This document shows, piece by piece, positions 21,114-34,660 of a stretch of DNA of 35,348 nt. A program made the translations under genes and the position numbers. Source of the stretch: Deltaproteobacteria bacterium (GTDB taxonomy: Bacteria > Desulfobacterota > Desulfobacteria > Desulfobacterales > UBA11574); contig JAFDHQ010000018.1 in assembly GCA_019308685.1 (NCBI GenBank), positions 1-35,348 of the forward strand, given 5' to 3'. Positions within the stretch are counted from its first letter, which is position 1; the number at the start of each line of letters is the position of its first letter. Below the pieces are notes generated by a model that was not told the DNA's origin, ran no database searches, and saw only the letters and a list, made by a program, of their open reading frames with translations.

Positions 21114-21154
21114 ATGCACAGAAAAATGTGCACGATGCACATTTTTCTGTGCAT
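21114..21154. repeat. Perfect 19-bp hairpin with nested TGCACA palindromes
   Basis: Two 19-nt arms are exact inverted copies around a 3-nt CGA loop. Each arm is itself palindromic at its ends (TGCACA-GAAAAA-TGTGCA), so TGCACA/TGTGCA occurs four times in alternating orientation. It lies 133 bp upstream of the sigma-54-type promoter, a usual distance for an enhancer-type activator site, although it could also be a transcript hairpin. Confidence 0.65.
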
Positions 21155-26350: not shown

Positions 26351-26744
26351 AAAAAAGATTTATGATAAAGGAGCAGTTTTAGTCGGTCTTTGCATCTTTG
26401 TAATTGTGATAACGTTTCCCTTCTGGTTCAACTTTGGAAATGCCGCTCCGGCGCCGGAACCCAAAATTTCTGACAAAGCCAAAGCCGCAAAAGAGTGTGT
26501 CATGCCCAAAGAATACATGAAGATGGAGCATATGCAGCTTCTGAATGAATGGAGGGATACGGTTGTACGAGACGCCAAAAGGATCTTTGTAAGCAGCAGT
26601 GGGAAGGAATTTAATATGAGTCTTACCAATACCTGTTTGGATTGTCACGTGGAAAAGGCTGAATTTTGTGACAAATGCCATAATTATGCTTCGGTAACCC
26701 CTTACTGCTGGGAGTGCCACATCGATCCAAAGGAGACCAAGTGA
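26340..26744 (+). CDS. dsrJ: DsrJ, periplasmic triheme cytochrome c
   Basis: This small membrane-anchored cytochrome c has one N-terminal hydrophobic helix (about residues 10-30, uncleaved or signal). Three heme sites sit close together near the C-terminus: CLDCH, CDKCH and CWECH. A single non-heme Cys in the KECVMPKEYM region matches the place where DsrJ is known to use an unusual His/Cys heme ligand; that match is from memory. The ORF track begins at 26310, but GGAGG at 26329-26333 is best spaced for the ATG at 26340 (MPNKKK), giving 134 aa. Maturation would need the System II Ccs pair encoded at 8.3-10.6 kb. Confidence 0.95.
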   Translation: MPNKKKIYDKGAVLVGLCIFVIVITFPFWFNFGNAAPAPEPKISDKAKAAKECVMPKEYMKMEHMQLLNEWRDTVVRDAKRIFVSSSGKEFNMSLTNTCLDCHVEKAEFCDKCHNYASVTPYCWECHIDPKETK

Positions 26745-27532
26745 TGAAAAGCAGCAGAAGAAAATTTTTGAAAATAGCCGGTGTTTCAGCACTCGGTTTA
26801 GGGGCTAAGCCGGTACTCGACGTACTGGCCGCGTCCGGTGAACATGAAGAAACATCTAAGCCTGAAATCATGAAAGGCAAAGATGCTTTGATAGCCAAAA
26901 GATGGGCCATGGTTGTTGACACCCGCAAAATCGAATCCGAAGAAGACCTCAAGCCCATGATTGAGGCCTGCCATAAAATCCATAATGTTCCTGAATTTGA
27001 AAATAAAAATCATGAGATCAAATGGATTTGGCTGGAAGAGTTTAAACATGAATTTCCGACCCAGGAACATGAATTTGTAGATGAAAGGGTCAAGCATTTA
27101 CCTTTTTTAACCCTTTGTAATCATTGTCAAAATCCTGCCTGTGTTCGGGTTTGTCCTACAAAGGCAACGTTTAAACGCGAAGACGGAATCGTACTCATGG
27201 ATTTTCATCGATGCATCGGCTGCAGATTCTGCATGGCGGCCTGCCCCTATGGATCCAGAAGTTTCAATTTCAGAGATCCGCGCCCCTTTATCAAGGAGAC
27301 CAACCCCGAATTTCCCACCAGAACAAAAGGGGTTGTTGAAAAATGTAATTTCTGTGCGGAAAGACTGGCGGTGGGGAGAATGCCGGCCTGTGTTGAGGCG
27401 TCCAACGGTGTGCTGACCTTCGGCGATCTGGATGATCCTGAATCGGAAGTCAGAAAACTGTTAAAAGCCAATTATGCGATACGTCGTAAACCGGCCCTGG
27501 GAGCTGGGCCATCAGTATTTTATATTATATGA
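26744..27532 (+). CDS. dsrO: DsrO, periplasmic ferredoxin-like subunit
   Basis: The electron-transfer subunit with several [4Fe-4S] clusters. The N-terminus carries a twin-arginine signal (SSRRKFLKIAGVSALG), so the folded iron-sulfur protein is exported by Tat. Cysteine groups CNHCQNPACVRVC, CIGCRFCMAAC and CNFCAERLAVGRMPAC fit the DmsB/NrfC/HybA-like fold. The true start is the ATG at 26744, which shares one base with the dsrJ stop (TGATG) and has AGGAG 8 nt upstream. The 10 extra residues in the track are not part of a Tat signal. Length is 262 aa. It is predicted to bridge DsrJ and DsrP. Confidence 0.95.
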   Translation: MKSSRRKFLKIAGVSALGLGAKPVLDVLAASGEHEETSKPEIMKGKDALIAKRWAMVVDTRKIESEEDLKPMIEACHKIHNVPEFENKNHEIKWIWLEEFKHEFPTQEHEFVDERVKHLPFLTLCNHCQNPACVRVCPTKATFKREDGIVLMDFHRCIGCRFCMAACPYGSRSFNFRDPRPFIKETNPEFPTRTKGVVEKCNFCAERLAVGRMPACVEASNGVLTFGDLDDPESEVRKLLKANYAIRRKPALGAGPSVFYII

Positions 27533-27539
27533 GGTGGAT

Positions 27540-28703
27540 ATGCTTGAAAAGGCGTTAACAGGAAGCAAAAGATACTATGGATGGATGGCGGCGTTACTCG
27601 CCGTTATCAGTGTTGGTTTTGTCTGCTATCTGTGGCAGTTTCGTTTCGGCTTAGGGATTACAGGCATGAGCCGGGACGTATCCTGGGGATTTTATATCGC
27701 CCAGTTCACGTTCCTTGTCGGTGTGGCTGCATCGGCGGTAATGGTGGTTCTTCCCTATTATCTGCATGATTATAAAGCATTCGGCAGGATTACCATTTTG
27801 GGAGAATTTCTGGCGGTGGCTTCGGTGACCATGTGCATCCTGTTTATTTTCGTGGATCTGGGCCAGCCCATACGGGTCATGAATGTGCTGTTGCACCCCA
27901 CACCCAATTCGATTCTTTTCTGGGATATGATCGTGTTAAACGGCTACCTTTTACTGAATATTGTTATCTCCTGGAAAGTACTGGAAGCAGAGCGCAACAA
28001 TGTTGCCCCGCCCAAATGGTTAAAACCTTTTATATATATTTCAATCCCATGGGCTGTGAGTATCCATACGGTAACGGCATATCTGTACTGTGGTCTTCCG
28101 GGCAGGGGGTTCTGGCTCACCGCTATTTTGGCACCCCGCTTTCTTTCTTCGGCCTTTGCTGCAGGTCCGGCGCTTTTAATCCTGTTGTGCATGATTGTCA
28201 GGAAATTTACCAAGTTTGATCCGGGCAAGGAACAGATCCAGTCTCTCGCCAAAGTCGTGGCATATGCCATCACCGTCAATGTATTCTTTTTTCTGTGCGA
28301 GGTCTTTGTGGTATTCTACAGCAAAATACCGGATCATATGGACCATCTAATCTACCTTTTTGTGGGATTGCACGGACACGGTGTTTTAGTGCCCTGGATG
28401 TGGGCCTCCATGATACTTATGGTGGTGTCGATTATTTTGCTGGTCAACCCGGTAACCCGCAAAAACGAGACGGTTCTGGTTGCAGCCTGCATCACCGTGT
28501 TTGTCAGCACCTGGATTGACAAGGGCCTGGGAATGATATCCGGCGGGTTTGTCCCCAACCCCTTGCATCATGTGAATGAATATGTCCCCACAGTACCTGA
28601 AATTCTTATTTCCATCGCGGTATGGGCCATAGGCTTTCTGGTATTGACGGTTCTGTACAAAATCGGTGTAACCGTCAAAGAAGAAATCGCAGGATTAGCA
28701 TAA
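27540..28703 (+). CDS. dsrP: DsrP, NrfD/PsrC-like membrane quinone subunit
   Basis: An integral membrane protein of 387 aa with about ten hydrophobic segments, of the NrfD/PsrC/HybB superfamily that exchanges electrons between quinol and periplasmic iron-sulfur subunits. Recognisable stretches are GLGITGMSRDVSWGFYIAQFTF near residue 35 and SWAVSIHTVTAYLYCGLPGRGFW-like text near residue 175. The ORF track starts at 27474 inside dsrO; the ATG at 27540 behind GAGGTGG is the better start. It is the last dsr gene; a MITE-like element and then a terminator follow. Confidence 0.95.
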   Translation: MLEKALTGSKRYYGWMAALLAVISVGFVCYLWQFRFGLGITGMSRDVSWGFYIAQFTFLVGVAASAVMVVLPYYLHDYKAFGRITILGEFLAVASVTMCILFIFVDLGQPIRVMNVLLHPTPNSILFWDMIVLNGYLLLNIVISWKVLEAERNNVAPPKWLKPFIYISIPWAVSIHTVTAYLYCGLPGRGFWLTAILAPRFLSSAFAAGPALLILLCMIVRKFTKFDPGKEQIQSLAKVVAYAITVNVFFFLCEVFVVFYSKIPDHMDHLIYLFVGLHGHGVLVPWMWASMILMVVSIILLVNPVTRKNETVLVAACITVFVSTWIDKGLGMISGGFVPNPLHHVNEYVPTVPEILISIAVWAIGFLVLTVLYKIGVTVKEEIAGLA

Positions 28704-28727
28704 ACTGTTGTTGATGTTTTTTTTTAG

Positions 28728-28871
28728 AGAGACCTTTGAAAAATGCTCAATTTTGTTCAATAACAAGGAAGGCGAAAATTTTAACCACAGGAATACATTG
28801 AGTATTTTGAGGATTAAAATTTGAGACTGACGCAGGAATTGAGCAAAAGGGGGCGTTTTGCAAAGGTCTCT
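28728..28871. mobile_element. MITE-like 144-bp element in the dsr 3' region, copy D
   Basis: The terminal inverted repeats AGAGACCTTTG and CAAAGGTCTCT are perfect over 11 bp and continue inward imperfectly (GCTCAATTTTG against the complement of AAAAGGGGGCG). The centre has the small hairpin ATAC-ATTGA-GTAT (28793-28805) followed by TTGAGGATTAAAATTTGAG, parallel to the centre of copy C. No ORF is inside. The size equals copy C. Confidence 0.7.
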
Positions 28872-28875
28872 TAGA

Positions 28876-28907: not shown

Positions 28908-28934
28908 TTGACATTCTCTCATTAACCATATAAA
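28908..28934 (+). promoter_or_regulatory. Possible promoter of the cbiM operon
   Basis: TTGACA follows the dsr terminator T-tract directly, and TATAAA lies 15 bp downstream (shorter than the ideal 17). A start near 28941 would give a leader of about 140 nt containing the hairpin at 29011-29066. Confidence 0.45.
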
Positions 28935-29010
28935 AATTATCTAAATTTTACGTAATAAGAAATTGCGTTTTTAGCGTTACATCTCCTTTTAAAATTAACT
29001 GTAAAAATTA

Positions 29011-29066
29011 AAAAAGCCAGGAAGGCTCAAATGGATTGAAATCCAACAGGCATTCCTGGTTTTTTT
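29011..29066 (+). promoter_or_regulatory. Terminator-like leader hairpin just upstream of cbiM
   Basis: A-rich sequence plus CCAGGAA pairs with TTCCTGG plus a seven-T run (about 12 bp with one bulged G). An inner stem is TGGATT/AATCCA. It ends 17 nt before the cbiM start, after the dsr operon already has its own terminator, so it is best read as an attenuator within the cbiM leader. The frame CCA-x-GAAGG ... TTC-x-TGG is shared with the hairpin before the DUF4198 gene. Confidence 0.6.
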
Positions 29067-29082
29067 GTTTGCGGGTAAAAAA

Positions 29083-29700
29083 ATGCATATATCCGAGGGA
29101 GTATTATCCGCACCGGTGCTTGTCACGGGTGCAGCCCTGGCGGTAACCGGGATCTCAGTGGGTCTGAAAAAAATGGATTACGATAAGATTCCAGAGGCCG
29201 CGGTCCTGTCAGCCACTTTTTTTGTCGCCTCTTTGATCCACGTTCCAATGGGTCCATCCAGTGTCCACCTCGTCCTCAATGGGATAAACGGACTCCTTTT
29301 GGGCTGGCTCTGTTTTCCTTCAATATTGGTCGCTTTGGCGCTTCAGGCAATTCTTTTCCAGTTCGGTGGGATCACTGTGCTTGGCGTTAATACGGTAATC
29401 ATGGCCCTGCCCGGTTTAATGGGTTACTATGTTTTCGGCAACCTTATAAAAGGAAAAAACAGGCTTTTGAGTTTGGCAGCCGCCTTTGCCTGTGGATTTT
29501 TCTCTGTTCTCCTTTCAGGCATTTTTGTGGCAGGTGCTTTGTTGTTTACAGGGAAATCATTTATATCGGCGGCCAAACTCATTTTATTGGCTCATCTGCC
29601 CGTAATGATTATTGAAGGAATCATTACGCTTTTTTGTGTAGCATTTTTGAAGAAGGTAAAACCAGAGATTCTGGGAGGTGTTTATGAAAAAGGGTCATAA
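29083..29700 (+). CDS. cbiM: CbiM/NikM, substrate-specific subunit of an ECF-type Ni/Co importer
   Basis: CbiM/NikM is the metal-selective S component. In this family the free N-terminal amine, His2 and a later His bind the metal, so the mature protein must begin Met-His. The ATG at 29083 gives exactly MHISEGVLSAP; the ORF-track extension from 29065 is not credible. The 205-aa protein has about six membrane segments and the conserved SLIHVPMGPSSVHLVLNG with the additional His. Its 3' end overlaps nikL by 17 bp. Ni2+ is favoured over Co2+ because a NikL-type partner follows and no cobalamin riboswitch is visible upstream, but the sequence does not settle it. Confidence 0.94.
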   Translation: MHISEGVLSAPVLVTGAALAVTGISVGLKKMDYDKIPEAAVLSATFFVASLIHVPMGPSSVHLVLNGINGLLLGWLCFPSILVALALQAILFQFGGITVLGVNTVIMALPGLMGYYVFGNLIKGKNRLLSLAAAFACGFFSVLLSGIFVAGALLFTGKSFISAAKLILLAHLPVMIIEGIITLFCVAFLKKVKPEILGGVYEKGS

Positions 29701-30274
29701 TACCCGGTTTTCCTTTATTATTCTTTTAACCGCTATCATCCTAATAGGGAGCCATGTTCCTGCCAAGGCCCATAAGGTAATGATTTTTGCCTGGGTTGAG
29801 GGAGACACGGTTTTCACTGAGAGTAAGTTTAGCGGAGGAAAAAAGGCTATTCATGCACCGGTTGAAATATTTGATAAGGACGGCAAAAAACTTTTGGAAG
29901 GAAAGACCGATAACGAAGGAGAATTTTCTTTTAAAATACCTAAAGTAACTGATTTGAGGATCGTCCTTAATGCCGCTATGGGCCATAAAGCAGAGTGGAC
30001 GGTCCCGGAATCAGAAATTCGTGAAGCAGGCGCTATTGTGGAGAAAAAAAGTACTGCTGAGCCTTCCGGGCCAATAGCGGTCGGGTTAAGCAAAAAAGAA
30101 GTCCAAAAGATTGTTGAGGATTCCCTGGATAAAAAACTCAGGCCCATTATCAGGATGATAACCGAATCCAGGAATACCAAGCCCTCTCTCACCGAAATAA
30201 TCGGGGGCATCGGGTATATCTTCGGACTCATGGGAGTCGCACTATATTTTAAAAACAGAGGGAAAAAGCGTTGA
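29684..30274 (+). CDS. nikL: NikL/CbiL-type auxiliary protein of the Ni/Co importer
   Basis: The 196-residue protein has a cleavable-looking signal (about 1-28, ending PAKAHK). A periplasmic carboxypeptidase-regulatory-like beta domain follows: KVMIFAWVEGDTVFTESKF, then DGKKLLEGKTDNEGEFSF. A linker leads to a C-terminal membrane helix (IGGIGYIFGLMGVALYF). This matches the NikL component found between nikM and nikQ in deltaproteobacteria. After signal cleavage the chain would start near His-Lys, which could bind metal. The ATG at 29684 behind GGAGGT is preferred. It is 16 bp before cbiQ. Confidence 0.8.
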   Translation: MKKGHNTRFSFIILLTAIILIGSHVPAKAHKVMIFAWVEGDTVFTESKFSGGKKAIHAPVEIFDKDGKKLLEGKTDNEGEFSFKIPKVTDLRIVLNAAMGHKAEWTVPESEIREAGAIVEKKSTAEPSGPIAVGLSKKEVQKIVEDSLDKKLRPIIRMITESRNTKPSLTEIIGGIGYIFGLMGVALYFKNRGKKR

Positions 30275-30290
30275 GGTTTAGAAATACAAG

Positions 30291-31049
30291 ATGATTGAGG
30301 AACAATTTTCTACGGGCAACTCCATTATTCACGGTCTGGATCCAAGGGTTAAACTTATCATCGTTGCATTTTTTTCTGTGATAGTTGCCATATCAAGCAG
30401 ATTTTTAGCATTGCTTCCCGCATTGGCCATATCGCTATTTCTTGTGGCCATGGCCAAACTGTCAATAAAAAAAGTCTTCCATAGGTTATTATTAGTCAAT
30501 GGATTCATCCTTTTCCTCTGGTTGGTTCTTCCGTTTACATACAACGGTGAAGAATGGTTTGCCATAGGGCCGTTTGTCGCAACCAAAGAAGGGATATTGC
30601 TTGCGAGTCAAATTACGGTCAAAAGCAATTCTATCCTTTTGTCCATGATTGCTCTTTTGTCCACAACACCGATTTTTTCACTGGGCCATGCCATGGGACA
30701 ACTCCATTTTCCAAATAAAATAACACACCTTTTTTTGTTTACTTTCCGCTATATCCATGTAATTTATAAGGAGTATCGCAGGCTGACAAACGCGATGAGG
30801 GTGCGTGGTTTTGTCCCTCGATCAAATATGCACACCTACAAGAGTTATGCTTATCTTGTGGGAATGCTTCTGGTCAGAAGTTATGACCGGGCGGAAAGAA
30901 TCCACAAGGCTATGCGTTGCAGGGGATTTAACAAAAAATATCATTCATTAACACAATTTTCCCTCAAAATGGAAGATATCTTTTGTCTGTCACTGATGCT
31001 GGCCGTAATTTCAGGACTGGCGGTTTTGCAATGGGTCGTAACAACCTGA
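30291..31049 (+). CDS. cbiQ: CbiQ/NikQ, energy-coupling transmembrane subunit
   Basis: The T component of the importer, 252 aa with about five membrane segments. It carries the two cytoplasmic Ala-Arg-Gly-type coupling helices, read here as NAMRVRGFVPR and KAMRCRGFNKK, which contact the ATPase. The opening SIIHGLDPRVKLIIVAFF is a family signature. The ATG follows a distant GAGGT site that includes the nikL stop. Its 3' end overlaps cbiO by 19 bp. Confidence 0.94.
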   Translation: MIEEQFSTGNSIIHGLDPRVKLIIVAFFSVIVAISSRFLALLPALAISLFLVAMAKLSIKKVFHRLLLVNGFILFLWLVLPFTYNGEEWFAIGPFVATKEGILLASQITVKSNSILLSMIALLSTTPIFSLGHAMGQLHFPNKITHLFLFTFRYIHVIYKEYRRLTNAMRVRGFVPRSNMHTYKSYAYLVGMLLVRSYDRAERIHKAMRCRGFNKKYHSLTQFSLKMEDIFCLSLMLAVISGLAVLQWVVTT

Positions 31050-31762
31050 TCATTAATTTAGAAGGGGTATCATTCTCATATTCAGCGGGTAAACCCGTAA
31101 TTGATAACCTGAGTTTTCATCTTCATCCAGGTGACCGTATCGGTCTTGTGGGGCCGAACGGCAGCGGTAAAACCACGCTTTTTCATATTATCCTGGGTCT
31201 ATTAAAACCCTATTCCGGCACCGTCAAACTTTTCGGCAGGCATGCCAAAGAGGAAAAAGATTTTAGAGAGGCCAGAAAAAGGATAGGGCTCCTTTTTCAA
31301 GACCCTGATGACCAATTATTCAGTCCCACGGTCCTTGAAGATGTCGCCTTTGGCCCGCTGAATCTGGGGAAATCCCCGGAAGAGGCAAAAGACATTGCCT
31401 TGAACACACTTGCCAGACTTGACCTTTCCGGGTTTAAGGATAGGATAACCTACAAACTATCAGGAGGTGAAAAAAGGCTGGTCTCCTTGGCTACGGTCTT
31501 TGCAATGGACCCGGAGGTCCTTCTCCTTGACGAACCTACCAATGGACTGGATGAAGAAACAGAAAAAAAAATAACCAATATCTTAAAAAAATTGGAGCTA
31601 TCCTACATTTTTATTTCTCACAACTTTGATTTCCTTTCAAAAACCACGAACAGGATATATGCCATGTCAAAGGGAAAAATTTCCTCTGATGAGGCCATGG
31701 TCCCCCACTCCCATATTCATATCCATAAATCCGGCAAGATACCTCATAAGCACAAATCTTGA
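31031..31762 (+). CDS. cbiO: CbiO/NikO, ATPase subunit with His-rich tail
   Basis: An ABC ATPase of 243 aa. Walker A is GPNGSGKTT, the Q-loop LLFQDPDDQLFSPTV is typical of ECF ATPases, the signature is LSGGEKR, Walker B is VLLLDEPT and the switch is SHN. The ATG at 31031 (MGRNNL) replaces the track start at 30983, which lies within the cbiQ reading region. The last 20 residues carry seven His (HSHIHIHKS then PHKHKS), a likely metal-binding tail. It is the last gene of the importer operon. Confidence 0.94.
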   Translation: MGRNNLIINLEGVSFSYSAGKPVIDNLSFHLHPGDRIGLVGPNGSGKTTLFHIILGLLKPYSGTVKLFGRHAKEEKDFREARKRIGLLFQDPDDQLFSPTVLEDVAFGPLNLGKSPEEAKDIALNTLARLDLSGFKDRITYKLSGGEKRLVSLATVFAMDPEVLLLDEPTNGLDEETEKKITNILKKLELSYIFISHNFDFLSKTTNRIYAMSKGKISSDEAMVPHSHIHIHKSGKIPHKHKS

Positions 31763-31771
31763 GTCATTATA

Positions 31772-31799
31772 ACCGGTGACCCGGCTCCGGGTCACCGGT
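31772..31799 (+). terminator. Strong GC-rich hairpin after cbiO
   Basis: ACCGGTGACCCGG and CCGGGTCACCGGT are perfect inverted 13-mers around a 2-nt centre, 10 bp after the cbiO stop. No T-run follows, so it may end transcription imperfectly or protect the transcript. Confidence 0.6.
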
Positions 31800-31803
31800 G
31801 TTG

Positions 31804-32100
31804 TAAATTAGATAACCGTTCACGGACTTTTTGAAACCCAAAATTCCAACCGCCAAAGATCAATTAAATCTCAAATTCCAAGCACCAAATCTCAAACAAA
31901 TTTAAAACTCCAAATTCCAAACCGGTTCAAAGCGATTGTTTTTTTGTTTGGGATTTTGAATTTCGGTCATTGGTGTTTGCCTGCCCTGTTAAATAAATCG
32001 TAGATTTAATGCGAAGCATTATTTAACAGGGTAAATGTTTTGGGATTTGTTATTTGGAATTTCCACTAACTCCATTACACCGTGAACAGATACTAAATTA
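31804..32100. repeat. AT-rich CAAATTCC-type repeat with flanking inverted ends, copy 2
   Basis: The ends ATTAGATAACCGTTCACGG and the complement of CCGTGAACAGATACTAAAT are imperfect inverted copies. Inside is a fold-back of CAAATTCCAAG/CAAATCTCAAA words against TTTGGGATTTTGAATTT. A perfect 13-bp stem, CCCTGTTAAATAA/TTATTTAACAGGG, is at 31984-32031 with AATGC-GAA-GCATT near its apex. The whole fills the gap between the convergent cbiO and LbtU-like genes and carries no ORF. Confidence 0.65.
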
Positions 32101-32101
32101 G

Positions 32102-33364
32102 TTAAAACTCAACAGCAAGCTGTGTGGTCACTAAATCCCTTTCATCATCATTCTCGAATTCTCCATGGAGATATTCGAGAGACAGGGATGTGCTCTCAAA
32201 CAGGCCATACGTGACCGCCACGCCATACTGGTCTTCAGGAAGGAACTGATCTTCAGTAAGTAAGGGACCACCGAGATCATCGCCGCCCTCATACTTGACG
32301 GCAATTTCGAGCCGATCCGTTGCCGCATACGCCAGTTCGAAGTTCCATGTTTCGGGCTGAAATTCCTTTCCTCCGTCAAAAGATAATTCGTTCGCTTTAA
32401 ACTCATCAAGAGCCCCCAGATATTCACACTCAAGGAAGAATTTATCTATAAAAGATATGCTTAAAAAGGCGTTGAATCCACCCACATAGTCTTTAATTTG
32501 GCCGGGAGTTTCTCCCTCAAGGCCATCACTATCCGCAATATTACTGATGTAAGACACCCCGCCGGCAATGCCGAAATTCGAAATGAGTTCCTGGGGAAGA
32601 GAAAAGGAAGCAGCGGCGACATAGCTCTCTATATGATTATCTTCTCCGGTTTCATCGATGTCCCCGTTAAAGGCACTCACGGAAACGTCCATCCATTCAT
32701 TCACATATCCCACACTGAGTGCGCTTTCCCGGGTCTCCCCGAGCTCTAACGTTAACGGATCGCTGATAAAATGGCTTTCAAAATTGCCGAATGGAACATA
32801 GAGCTTGCCCACATTCAAATAAAGGGGCACCACATCCGCTCCGTCCAGGGTAATAAACCCTTCATCCACGTCCACGGGCTCCGTATCATCCTCTTCCCAT
32901 AAAAAGAGTACATGCCCCTTGACATGTTTTGTTATGTCCACATCAACCCCTAACTCCACCGTAGCGAGGGTTATATCACTCGAGTCCTCATCATTGGTCG
33001 CGGGATTATCATAGTCATAATCTTCGTAACCAGCTTCCGCCTCGATCACTCCGCTCAGGGTTATTTTATCCGCCCATTTTTCCAGTATACCCTCTTGTTT
33101 TTGTGCCATTTTTTCTTCAATTCGACGGACCCGTTCCGGCAGACCTTGACCTTCAAGACCGGTGGGAACATCTTTGGAAATTTTCTCTTTGGATACTTTT
33201 TCCTGCTTTTCCAGTTTCTCTTCGAGAATTCTGATTTTCTCTTTGAGCGCTTTTAATTCTTGCATGAGTTCGGTGTTGGACATCTCTTGGCAAATGCAAA
33301 CGCCCGGCATCATTAATGATATAACGATAAATGTTAAGAAAGTACTCATCAATCCCTTATTCAT
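32102..33364 (-). CDS. LbtU-like outer-membrane porin
   Basis: The 420-aa protein has a signal peptide (about 1-25), then a short coiled coil (LMQELKALKEKIRILEEKLEKQ). A beta-barrel region starts near residue 100 (ADKITLSGVIEAEAGYED), with alternating strands and Asp/Glu-rich loops, and a C-terminal aromatic (LAVEF) suits BAM assembly. The pattern resembles the LbtU siderophore-porin family annotated in many deltaproteobacteria; siderophore transport should not be assumed. It is 48 bp downstream of the DUF4198 gene on the same strand. With a periplasmic DUF4198 protein and an inner-membrane Ni/Co importer next door, metal entry is a plausible role. Confidence 0.82.
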   Translation of the reverse strand: MNKGLMSTFLTFIVISLMMPGVCICQEMSNTELMQELKALKEKIRILEEKLEKQEKVSKEKISKDVPTGLEGQGLPERVRRIEEKMAQKQEGILEKWADKITLSGVIEAEAGYEDYDYDNPATNDEDSSDITLATVELGVDVDITKHVKGHVLFLWEEDDTEPVDVDEGFITLDGADVVPLYLNVGKLYVPFGNFESHFISDPLTLELGETRESALSVGYVNEWMDVSVSAFNGDIDETGEDNHIESYVAAASFSLPQELISNFGIAGGVSYISNIADSDGLEGETPGQIKDYVGGFNAFLSISFIDKFFLECEYLGALDEFKANELSFDGGKEFQPETWNFELAYAATDRLEIAVKYEGGDDLGGPLLTEDQFLPEDQYGVAVTYGLFESTSLSLEYLHGEFENDDERDLVTTQLAVEF

Positions 33365-33412
33365 AAGTATTCTCCCTGTTCAGTCTATTATCTATCTGTT
33401 ATTAGAGAAAAA

Positions 33413-34189
33413 TTACTTTTCCTTCCATTCATGAAAGTTAACCCAGATTACAGCACCGATTTCTATGTCTTTTTCCTCACCCTTATGCTTCAGTTTTTCA
33501 TCAGCGGTATTCAGTGCGGCAAATCCCCACCAGCCGGCCTTCGGCACTGCATAAGTAAATACTCCGTTTTTATCGGCCTTGATCGTCTGGGTGACCATGT
33601 AGTCCGTGGGTGCTTGGGCCTTCCCATCTTTGTTATAGTATTCCACTTCCACCTCGGCATAAGGGACCGGGTTTCCATCCAGTTTGACAATTCCCTGGAA
33701 AACGTTTCCGGTATAAAGACCGAAGGGCTTTGATAGGGGGACGATCTCGGTTTTCAGCCCGATTTCTTCATCCCAGCCTTCATCGTCGCCGAATGCCGTA
33801 ACCACGGTCTTTGTATAATGCACGATAAAACAATCCTCTGCCGGTTCCCAGTAGGGTTTGGGCTCCATAAAGAACATGTATACACCCGGCCTTTTGACAG
33901 AGTAAGCCAATTCCCAGGCCGTATGCTCCATGATCGTCGTCTTTTTTAGACTGCCGAGCAAACTCTGTTTCTTGCCGTTTGCCACGACCCCAAAAGCAAT
34001 CGGTTTTACCAGTTCCATGCCATGCCCTTCAAAGGGATGAGAAAATGAGAGCGTCACCGTCACATTTTTGTTCTCGCCCTGCATAACCATACTGTCCGAG
34101 GGGATCACCATGCCGAAATGCGCAGAAGCCTGTCCTGCCAGTATGAAGATGGTTGTAATGATAACCGAAAAAATCATGCCCTTTTTCAT
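33413..34189 (-). CDS. DUF4198-type periplasmic protein (NikK-like)
   Basis: The 258-aa protein has a clear signal peptide ([19 protein letters not shown] then QASAHFG), so the mature form probably starts at or near His. The first half has [14 protein letters not shown], which is DUF4198-like, and the second half is a beta-sandwich with [26 protein letters not shown] and [25 protein letters not shown]4198 proteins are often encoded with nickel or cobalt importers in deltaproteobacteria, where one is called NikK. That makes a periplasmic metal-handling role likely but unproven. A strong AGGAGGT precedes the ATG. Transcription and the leader hairpin lie at 34208-34350. Confidence 0.85.
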
Positions 34190-34207
34190 GAAAACCTCCT
34201 TTTGTGC

Positions 34208-34262
34208 AAAAAAAAACCATGAACTTATGGCATCTTCATGATACCCATACCTTCATGGTTTT
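34208..34262 (-). promoter_or_regulatory. Terminator-like leader hairpin upstream of the DUF4198 gene
   Basis: On the minus strand AAAACCATGAA pairs with TTCATGGTTTT (11 bp), with inner stems TATGG/CCATA and ATC/GAT, and a nine-T run follows. The T-run ends just before the AGGAGGT and start codon. Placed between promoter and gene, it looks like an attenuator, and it shares its layout with the cbiM leader hairpin. Confidence 0.6.
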
Positions 34263-34323
34263 ATGTGTTTTTTGATGAATTAATTTTTATCGCAGCCTTC
34301 TGACTGCTATTTTTTCAGGAACA

Positions 34324-34350
34324 AATATATTATAAAATGGATGATGTCAA
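34324..34350 (-). promoter_or_regulatory. Possible promoter of the DUF4198-porin operon
   Basis: On the minus strand TTGACA lies 15 bp before TATATT, and a TATAAT overlaps the spacer. Neither combination has ideal spacing, so the exact boxes are uncertain. The leader to the start codon would be about 125 nt. Confidence 0.4.
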
Positions 34351-34389: not shown

Positions 34390-34660
34390 TTTGTCCGGGG
34401 TTAACAACCTTTTTCGTGAAAATCATGAAAATTCCAAGTACCAAAATACAAATCTCAAACAAATATCAATGACCGAAATTCAAAATTCAAAACAGATAGA
34501 ATGACGGCGAGACATCCAATAAGTGATTGAAATCTTTTGGTCATTGGAAATTGATCAGTAACAAATGTGATCTTAATGACCGATAGGTTCGCGCTATTCA
34601 TAATCATTTAACAGGGTAAATAATTTGAGTATTGTGATTTGGGATTTTAGTACCGTTTCC
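34390..34660. repeat. AT-rich CAAATTCC-type repeat, copy 3 (degenerate)
   Basis: It begins with a degenerate CCGG-type element (TTGTTTGTCCGGGG), continues with CAAATCTCAAACAAAT and AATTCAAAATTCAAAA words, and ends with ATTTAACAGGGTAAAT, which is also in copy 2, and TGTGATTTGGGATTT. The right half is weaker than in the other copies. No gene is seen in the whole stretch 34263-34899 apart from this repeat and the flanking promoters. Confidence 0.55.

Follow-up and report, generated by a model that had tools for sequence, protein, structure and literature searches.

A conserved leader RNA with recurring GAA loops probably controls nickel and cobalt uptake genes by antitermination in at least three bacterial phyla

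Why should two metal-uptake operons in one genome begin with near-matching hairpins followed by long T-runs? This question is raised by a 35,348-nt stretch of DNA (the window; contig JAFDHQ010000018.1 of assembly GCA_019308685.1, 3.26 Mb and 94.7% complete) from a Deltaproteobacteria bacterium of the order Desulfobacterales, in which such hairpins stand beside the operons cbiM-nikL-cbiQ-cbiO and DUF4198-LbtU porin. DUF4198 together with NikM, NikL, Q and O makes up the NikKMLQO nickel importer of Deltaproteobacteria (PMC545781, PMC2667541), and we refer to its gene as nikK. A preliminary description of this DNA had suggested that the two leaders share an attenuator responding to metal or protein. 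We propose, with a probability of about 0.72, that they belong to a conserved leader RNA which controls a Ni/Co-uptake regulon by factor-dependent antitermination.

The cbiM leader reads CCAGGAAGGC...GCATTCCTGG followed by T7 on the + strand, and the nikK leader CCATGAAGGT...AGTTCATGG followed by T9 on the minus strand. The letters and coordinates first reported were correct, and dinucleotide shuffling with the flanks included gave z-scores of -4.9 for the cbiM hairpin and -4.6 for the DUF4198 hairpin, with 0/200 shuffles folding as well. As in intrinsic terminators, a stable hairpin and U-run lie between a promoter-like site and the start codon. The pattern CCANGAAGG-N20-45-TTCNTGGTTT occurs twice in the entire host genome, at exactly these two leaders, while its reversed control does not occur at all. 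Two features had been overlooked in the preliminary description. The first is a further hairpin, P1, just 3' of the promoter in both leaders; the second is that the common 5' foot of the terminator, CC-A[N]GAA-GG, is itself a possible hairpin, P2.

The same anatomy is evident in relatives. Pattern matches were found in 33/146 of them against one reversed-control match, many directly 5' of a DUF4198 ortholog found independently of the pattern. We describe the element from the upstream regions of ~60 DUF4198 orthologs of many families. The common order is a TTGACA/TATAAT-like promoter, P1, an AU-rich linker, a terminator with an apical hairpin (P3), a U-run, a ribosome site and ATG. P1 has 5-8 bp and a 4-5 nt loop, [N]NGAA, with GAA at its end; the linker to the terminator spans about 26-60 nt (26-57 nt where measured, in 47 leaders); and the terminator consists of an outer stem, mostly CCACGAA/UUCGUGG, an unpaired GG and P3 with the loop A[N]GAA. 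A P1 with a GAA loop and at least 5 bp was present in 47/59 DUF4198 leaders as compared with 1.5% of dinucleotide shuffles. Loci collected by pattern without a gene anchor, free of model bias, gave 37/59 against 1.8% of shuffles, any other loop ending reaching at most 4.

Alignment of the three helices (A2) showed 94.7% of cells paired, with double-sided changes in 17/20 pairs. None of 500 shuffles reached the observed pairing, slid versions of the alignment paired in 35-47%, and the terminator alone also exceeded both controls. The loop GAA is nearly invariant and the stems are variable; C-G and U-A closing pairs both occur in P1 and in P3, within a sparse covariation table. The shuffle tests are uncorrected for relatedness, and neighbour-position controls, which share the same relatedness, were negative.

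Covariation also extends to P2. The terminator 5' foot x1-CC-NNGAA-GG-x2, found in 118/143 elements, is a short hairpin with an A-N-G-A-A-type loop (ACGAA 97, AUGAA 9, AGGAA 6, GCGAA 4, AAGAA 2). At x1-x2 these 118 elements have G-C 59 times, A-U 36, G-U 15 and non-pairing combinations 8 times, so that 110/118 pair against 90.3 +/- 2.7 expected (0/2000 shuffles as high). The excess holds for distinct sequences only (71/79 vs 60.2) and inside each group separately, while the control positions x1-x3, x1-x4 and x0-x2 pair at chance and a fifth P2 pair is not above shuffle. G-U outnumbers A-C at x1-x2 by 15 to 1 (p 5e-4). Since x1 pairs elsewhere in the terminator, terminator pairing does not tie x1 to x2. 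Likewise, the 5' arm GAAGG varies little (0.42-0.65 bits) at positions where the strand it pairs with in the terminator has drifted (0.87-1.88 bits), and its conservation exceeds the needs of terminator pairing. The compensatory change between the two window terminators, pointed out earlier, is real; in the wider set the same position is also the free second base of the A-N-G-A-A loop.

P2 and the terminator exclude one another. In nascent RNA before the 3' arm, the minimum free energy (MFE) fold is P1+P2+P3 in both window leaders. With the 3' arm present, the full terminator beats the P2-enforced fold by 9.3 and 13.5 kcal/mol in the two leaders. As the terminator outcompetes it, P2 could have an effect only through folding kinetics or with a factor to hold it.

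The genes behind the element indicate what it serves. Because dispersed CACGAAG repeats appeared among the pattern matches in relatives (loci L007 and L020), we turned from the simple pattern to a covariance model, R1, trained on 35 DUF4198 (NikK) leaders and excluding the cbiM leader; its E-values come from a short calibration. R1 recovered the excluded cbiM leader (28950-29065, 38.5 bits, E 1.3e-5 in 210 kb) with P1 covered, and matched 84/116 relatives (E <= 0.05). Directly 3' of matches outside nikK leaders are genes for several CbiM types, CbiO, NikL, LbtU and other porins, family-2 and family-5 substrate-binding proteins, TonB-dependent receptors, FmdE and DUF3842. An anchor-free scan of 84,980 genomes, using the exact pattern with neither a gene nor P1 required, gave 62 loci. 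Of these, 38 precede nikK, and others precede cbiM, cbiQ, TonB, FmdE, an energy-coupling factor (ECF) S component or substrate-binding proteins; Clostridia, Peptococcaceae, Syntrophaceticus schinkii and Nitrospirota are among the carriers. A whole-genome search of S. schinkii found nine copies, among them copies before NikA-like proteins, an ECF system and a cbiM-cbiN-DUF3842 operon, and 16/20 genomes of its class carry the element. Hence the element occurs in at least three phyla (Desulfobacterota, Nitrospirota and Firmicutes), and its downstream genes are overwhelmingly Ni/Co uptake genes, a coherent regulon from inner to outer membrane. The preliminary description had called for more copies and had staked its proposal on enrichment upstream of metal-transport genes in relatives; the covariance model and the anchor-free scan supply the copies, and the enrichment is present.

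A third copy in the host genome, outside the window, was found by R1 at G000:C277:3483-3605 (L172:301-423), 5' of a truncated frame. The 82-aa fragment has no Pfam match; the frame may begin a TonB-dependent receptor. In a genome of the same genus, five copies lie on one 52-kb contig (G002:C35; L173-L175), preceding cbiO, a TonB receptor, an FmdE-family gene, a LuxR-type regulator and a TonB-receptor plug gene.

The known regulator of such genes is largely missing where the element is found. In Deltaproteobacteria the NikR regulon comprises nikKMLQO/nikMQO and related Ni uptake genes, with the operator GTGTTAC-N13/14-GTAACAC (PMC545781), and NikR-independent regulation of nickel uptake was earlier noted as unexplained (PMC2667541). 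The element stands before the same kind of Ni uptake genes, but NikR is a DNA repressor, whereas here an RNA terminator element is found in lineages nearly all without NikR. NikR is absent from the host genome and present in 3/116 relatives of the order. Among 197 genomes of the phylum that are at least 90% complete, with the element called at E <= 1e-4, the element occurs in 21, NikR in 93 and both in one (p 1.4e-5). Regulon content and this mutual exclusion lend indirect support to a response to metal.

These data allow us to propose a mechanism. Polymerase would make P1 and then P2 (x1CC-ANGAA-GGx2); once the 3' arm is made, the outer terminator stem, much stabler than P2, would form and transcription would by default stop short of the start codon. 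P2 would be held closed by a factor acting in trans, most probably a protein that recognises the GAA loops in P1 and P2 and possibly also in P3. P2 would then occupy the 5' arm of the terminator, and polymerase could read into the uptake genes, the factor presumably being active under metal scarcity. We infer antitermination instead of stabilised termination, metal as the signal and a protein as the factor, the last because P2 is too weak to win alone. Several observations weigh against this mechanism. P2 has only 3-4 bp, and 25/143 elements are without the CC-NNGAA-GG foot, so that P2 may be optional or replaced there. A GAA-loop P3 was not detected by script in 37/87 non-NikK elements, and some pattern loci (L213, L252, L184) are 5' of no obvious metal gene.

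The protein might be DUF3842 (PF12953), which is highly conserved and was noticed because its own gene is directly 3' of the element in several genomes. DUF3842 is present in 67/197 of the phylum genomes, in 21/21 with the element against 46/176 others (p 1e-11). NikR accompanies it in 2/67, both of one genus, as compared with 91/130 genomes without DUF3842 (p 6e-22), and in one family (f114) NikR-only and DUF3842-only genomes stand side by side. In the order sample DUF3842 occurs in 78/84 element-bearing and 15/32 other genomes, the exceptions being mostly incomplete or contaminated assemblies. Its co-occurrence with the element follows lineage to some degree, and lineage effects are left in these statistics. 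The main host copy (L272; G000:C70:13590-13973) has an unrelated neighbourhood, ParB-NYN domain-DUF3842-IspH (names by eye).

We found no paper on DUF3842 in the open-licence PubMed Central (PMC) literature. A PDB profile search returned no solved relative, only a non-significant uL1 match (E 0.48) which is not used as evidence, and a single-sequence AlphaFold2 model was unusable (pLDDT, the model confidence score, 41.7). As a hypothesis only, DUF3842 is the leading candidate for the protein partner of the element. It is possible, though we hold this tentatively, that DUF3842 is a small Ni/Co-responsive RNA-binding antiterminator which reads the GAA-loop hairpins and has replaced NikR across much of Desulfobacterota and in anaerobic Firmicutes; a co-regulated protein that handles Ni/Co is an equally good reading. 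A second DUF3842 paralog, in the metal regulon, occurs in other genomes.

Many nickel-using anaerobes have no NikR. In a large group of them, sulfate reducers and syntrophic acetate oxidisers included, the element may explain how nickel uptake is regulated: a family of RNA attenuators, numbering up to about nine in a genome, appears to stand in for NikR. Its presence also identifies operons whose substrate is unknown (DUF3842, FmdE, TonB receptors, porins) as probably devoted to metal uptake, and the element would add a tandem-hairpin type of antiterminator with a loop code unlike that of ANTAR targets. Syntrophaceticus schinkii Sp3 is a cultured carrier.

Instead of a protein, the RNA itself might bind Ni2+/Co2+ or a metal-related metabolite through its GAA-loop hairpins, plentiful metal favouring the terminator. 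A single loop consensus shared by three phyla, as riboswitches often show, the existence of NiCo riboswitches and a regulon that fits a Ni/Co signal speak for this. We nevertheless regard it as unlikely: only three short loops and the GG are conserved, the linker differs among copies in both length and sequence, and nothing like an aptamer core is seen; three alike loops on freely varying stems resemble repeated protein sites. Known NiCo RNAs control efflux and form a four-way junction. The element shares with the NiCo (czcD) riboswitch a position in leaders tied to Ni/Co genes, but it precedes uptake genes, has a simple tandem-hairpin layout and is without a match to this or any other riboswitch in Rfam. 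Cobalamin riboswitches likewise control Co and B12 uptake genes, but have another structure. In the window only a tRNA matches Rfam, with neither NiCo nor the cobalamin aptamer RF00174 in the leaders; among 18 further loci the sole families matched were Cobalamin and tRNA, and the best sub-threshold match scored 21.6 bits against a cut-off of 50. The open-licence PMC literature yielded no RNA attenuator of nickel uptake for these groups. By comparison with Rfam 15 and with open-licence PMC papers, the element is thus apparently undescribed and, with the further copies and the Ni/Co-gene enrichment, the shared attenuator first suggested gains support.

In a Clostridiaceae metagenome-assembled genome (L206:1228-1539, minus strand), a cobalamin riboswitch lies directly 5' of a P2/P3-type terminator, either as tandem control or as a borrowed expression platform.

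Contrary to antitermination, a factor might bind the terminator loops and stabilise termination when metal is plentiful, P2 being a side effect. The terminator apical loop does have the same GAA motif as P1, and high metal calls for repression of an uptake operon. This account leaves unexplained both the x1-x2 covariation and the conservation of GAAGG beyond its pairing partner, and the terminators are already strong unaided; we consider it quite improbable.

The antitermination proposed here, with P2 competing against a stronger terminator, follows the logic of ANTAR target RNAs, in which tandem hairpins with like loops are arranged so that the second overlaps the 5' side of the terminator (PMC3369931, PMC8934654). 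P1 and P2 have this arrangement. As in targets of EutV, NasR and AmiR, the upstream hairpin is free and the next uses the terminator 5' arm and excludes the terminator; stems vary, loop bases are conserved and several operons per genome are involved. ANTAR loops, however, are hexanucleotides with A1 and G4, and their linkers are 2-25 nt (PMC8164766), whereas the loops here are [A]NGAA, of 4-5 nt and closed by C-G or U-A, the linker from P1 to the terminator is longer, and a third alike loop lies inside the terminator. The element also differs in having a metal-uptake regulon. ANTAR proteins occur in 63/116 relatives, but none was found in the host assembly, 94.7% complete, or in 35/84 element-bearing genomes. 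Given this absence from the host and the lack of association with the element (p 0.21), we rejected an ANTAR protein as the trans factor. That the element is a divergent ANTAR target bound by a known ANTAR protein is very unlikely, and could be rescued only by an undetected, highly divergent ANTAR domain.

A chance likeness of ordinary intrinsic terminators or a dispersed repeat, suggested by the CACGAAG repeats among the matches, has next to no probability and is refuted by a pattern unique to two leaders in the host genome and by covarying orthologous leaders across families and phyla, matched by R1 in relatives and tied to one gene function, Ni/Co uptake.

Table 1. Features of the two leaders and operons (window positions).
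Feature	Position	Strand	Basis
Promoter-like site, cbiM operon, TTGACA-18-AAAAAT	28908-28937	+	consensus scan 10/12; promoter-then-P1 order also in relatives
P1, cbiM leader, ACGTAAT-AAGAA-ATTGCGT	28950-28968	+	in leader MFE fold; inside R1 match 28950-29065
P2 (proposed antiterminator), cbiM leader, GCC-AGGAA-GGC, excludes terminator	29016-29026	+	nascent-RNA MFE before 3' arm; x1-x2 covariation, 118 elements
P3, terminator apical hairpin, cbiM leader, TGGAT-TGAA-ATCCA	29032-29045	+	folding, alignment covariation
Terminator, cbiM leader	stem 29017-29059, T7 29060-29066	+	-26.5 kcal/mol with flanks, z -4.9
cbiM/nikM, ECF substrate-binding membrane component	29083-29700	+	PF01891 E 2.4e-57; NF004905
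nikL	29684-30274	+	NF058648 NikL family nickel/cobalt ECF subunit, 187.6 bits, cut-off 100
cbiQ/nikQ	30291-31049	+	PF02361; TIGR02454
cbiO/nikO	31031-31762	+	PF00005; TIGR04521/TIGR01166 below cut-off
Promoter-like site, nikK operon, TTGACA...TATAATATA	34326-34350	-	read from sequence; position kept in relatives
P1, nikK leader, GCAGTC-AGAA-GGCTGC	34292-34307	-	GAA-loop P1 frequency in DUF4198 leaders; covariation
P2 (proposed antiterminator), nikK leader, ACC-ATGAA-GGT	34249-34259	-	x1-x2 covariation; nascent-RNA MFE
P3, apical hairpin, nikK leader, GGTATC-ATGAA-GATGCC	34229-34245	-	folding, alignment covariation
Terminator, nikK leader	stem 34217-34258, T9 34208-34216	-	z -4.6 with flanks; R1 match 34211-34308, 87.8 bits
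nikK (DUF4198), periplasmic component of NikKMLQO	33413-34189	-	PF10670 E 3.5e-66; name after PMC545781, PMC2667541
LbtU-family outer-membrane porin	32102-33364	-	NF033652 273 bits, cut-off 90

Elsewhere in the window, the dsrOP end of a DsrMKJOP sulfate-reduction operon lies 5' of the cbiM operon (26714-28703). Between dsrP and its terminator is a segment of ~150 bp (28726-28873) resembling a miniature inverted-repeat transposable element, with imperfect terminal inverted repeats AGAGACCTTTGaAAAAtGC.../...GCgTTTTGCAAAGGTCTCT. A near-perfect intergenic 19-bp inverted repeat (ATGCACAGAAAAATGTGCA...) is found at 21114-21154, and alike low-complexity intergenic repeats (ATTCCAAG.ACCAAATCTCAAACAAAT...) flank the DUF4198-LbtU operon on both sides, at 31840-32060 and 34430-34660.

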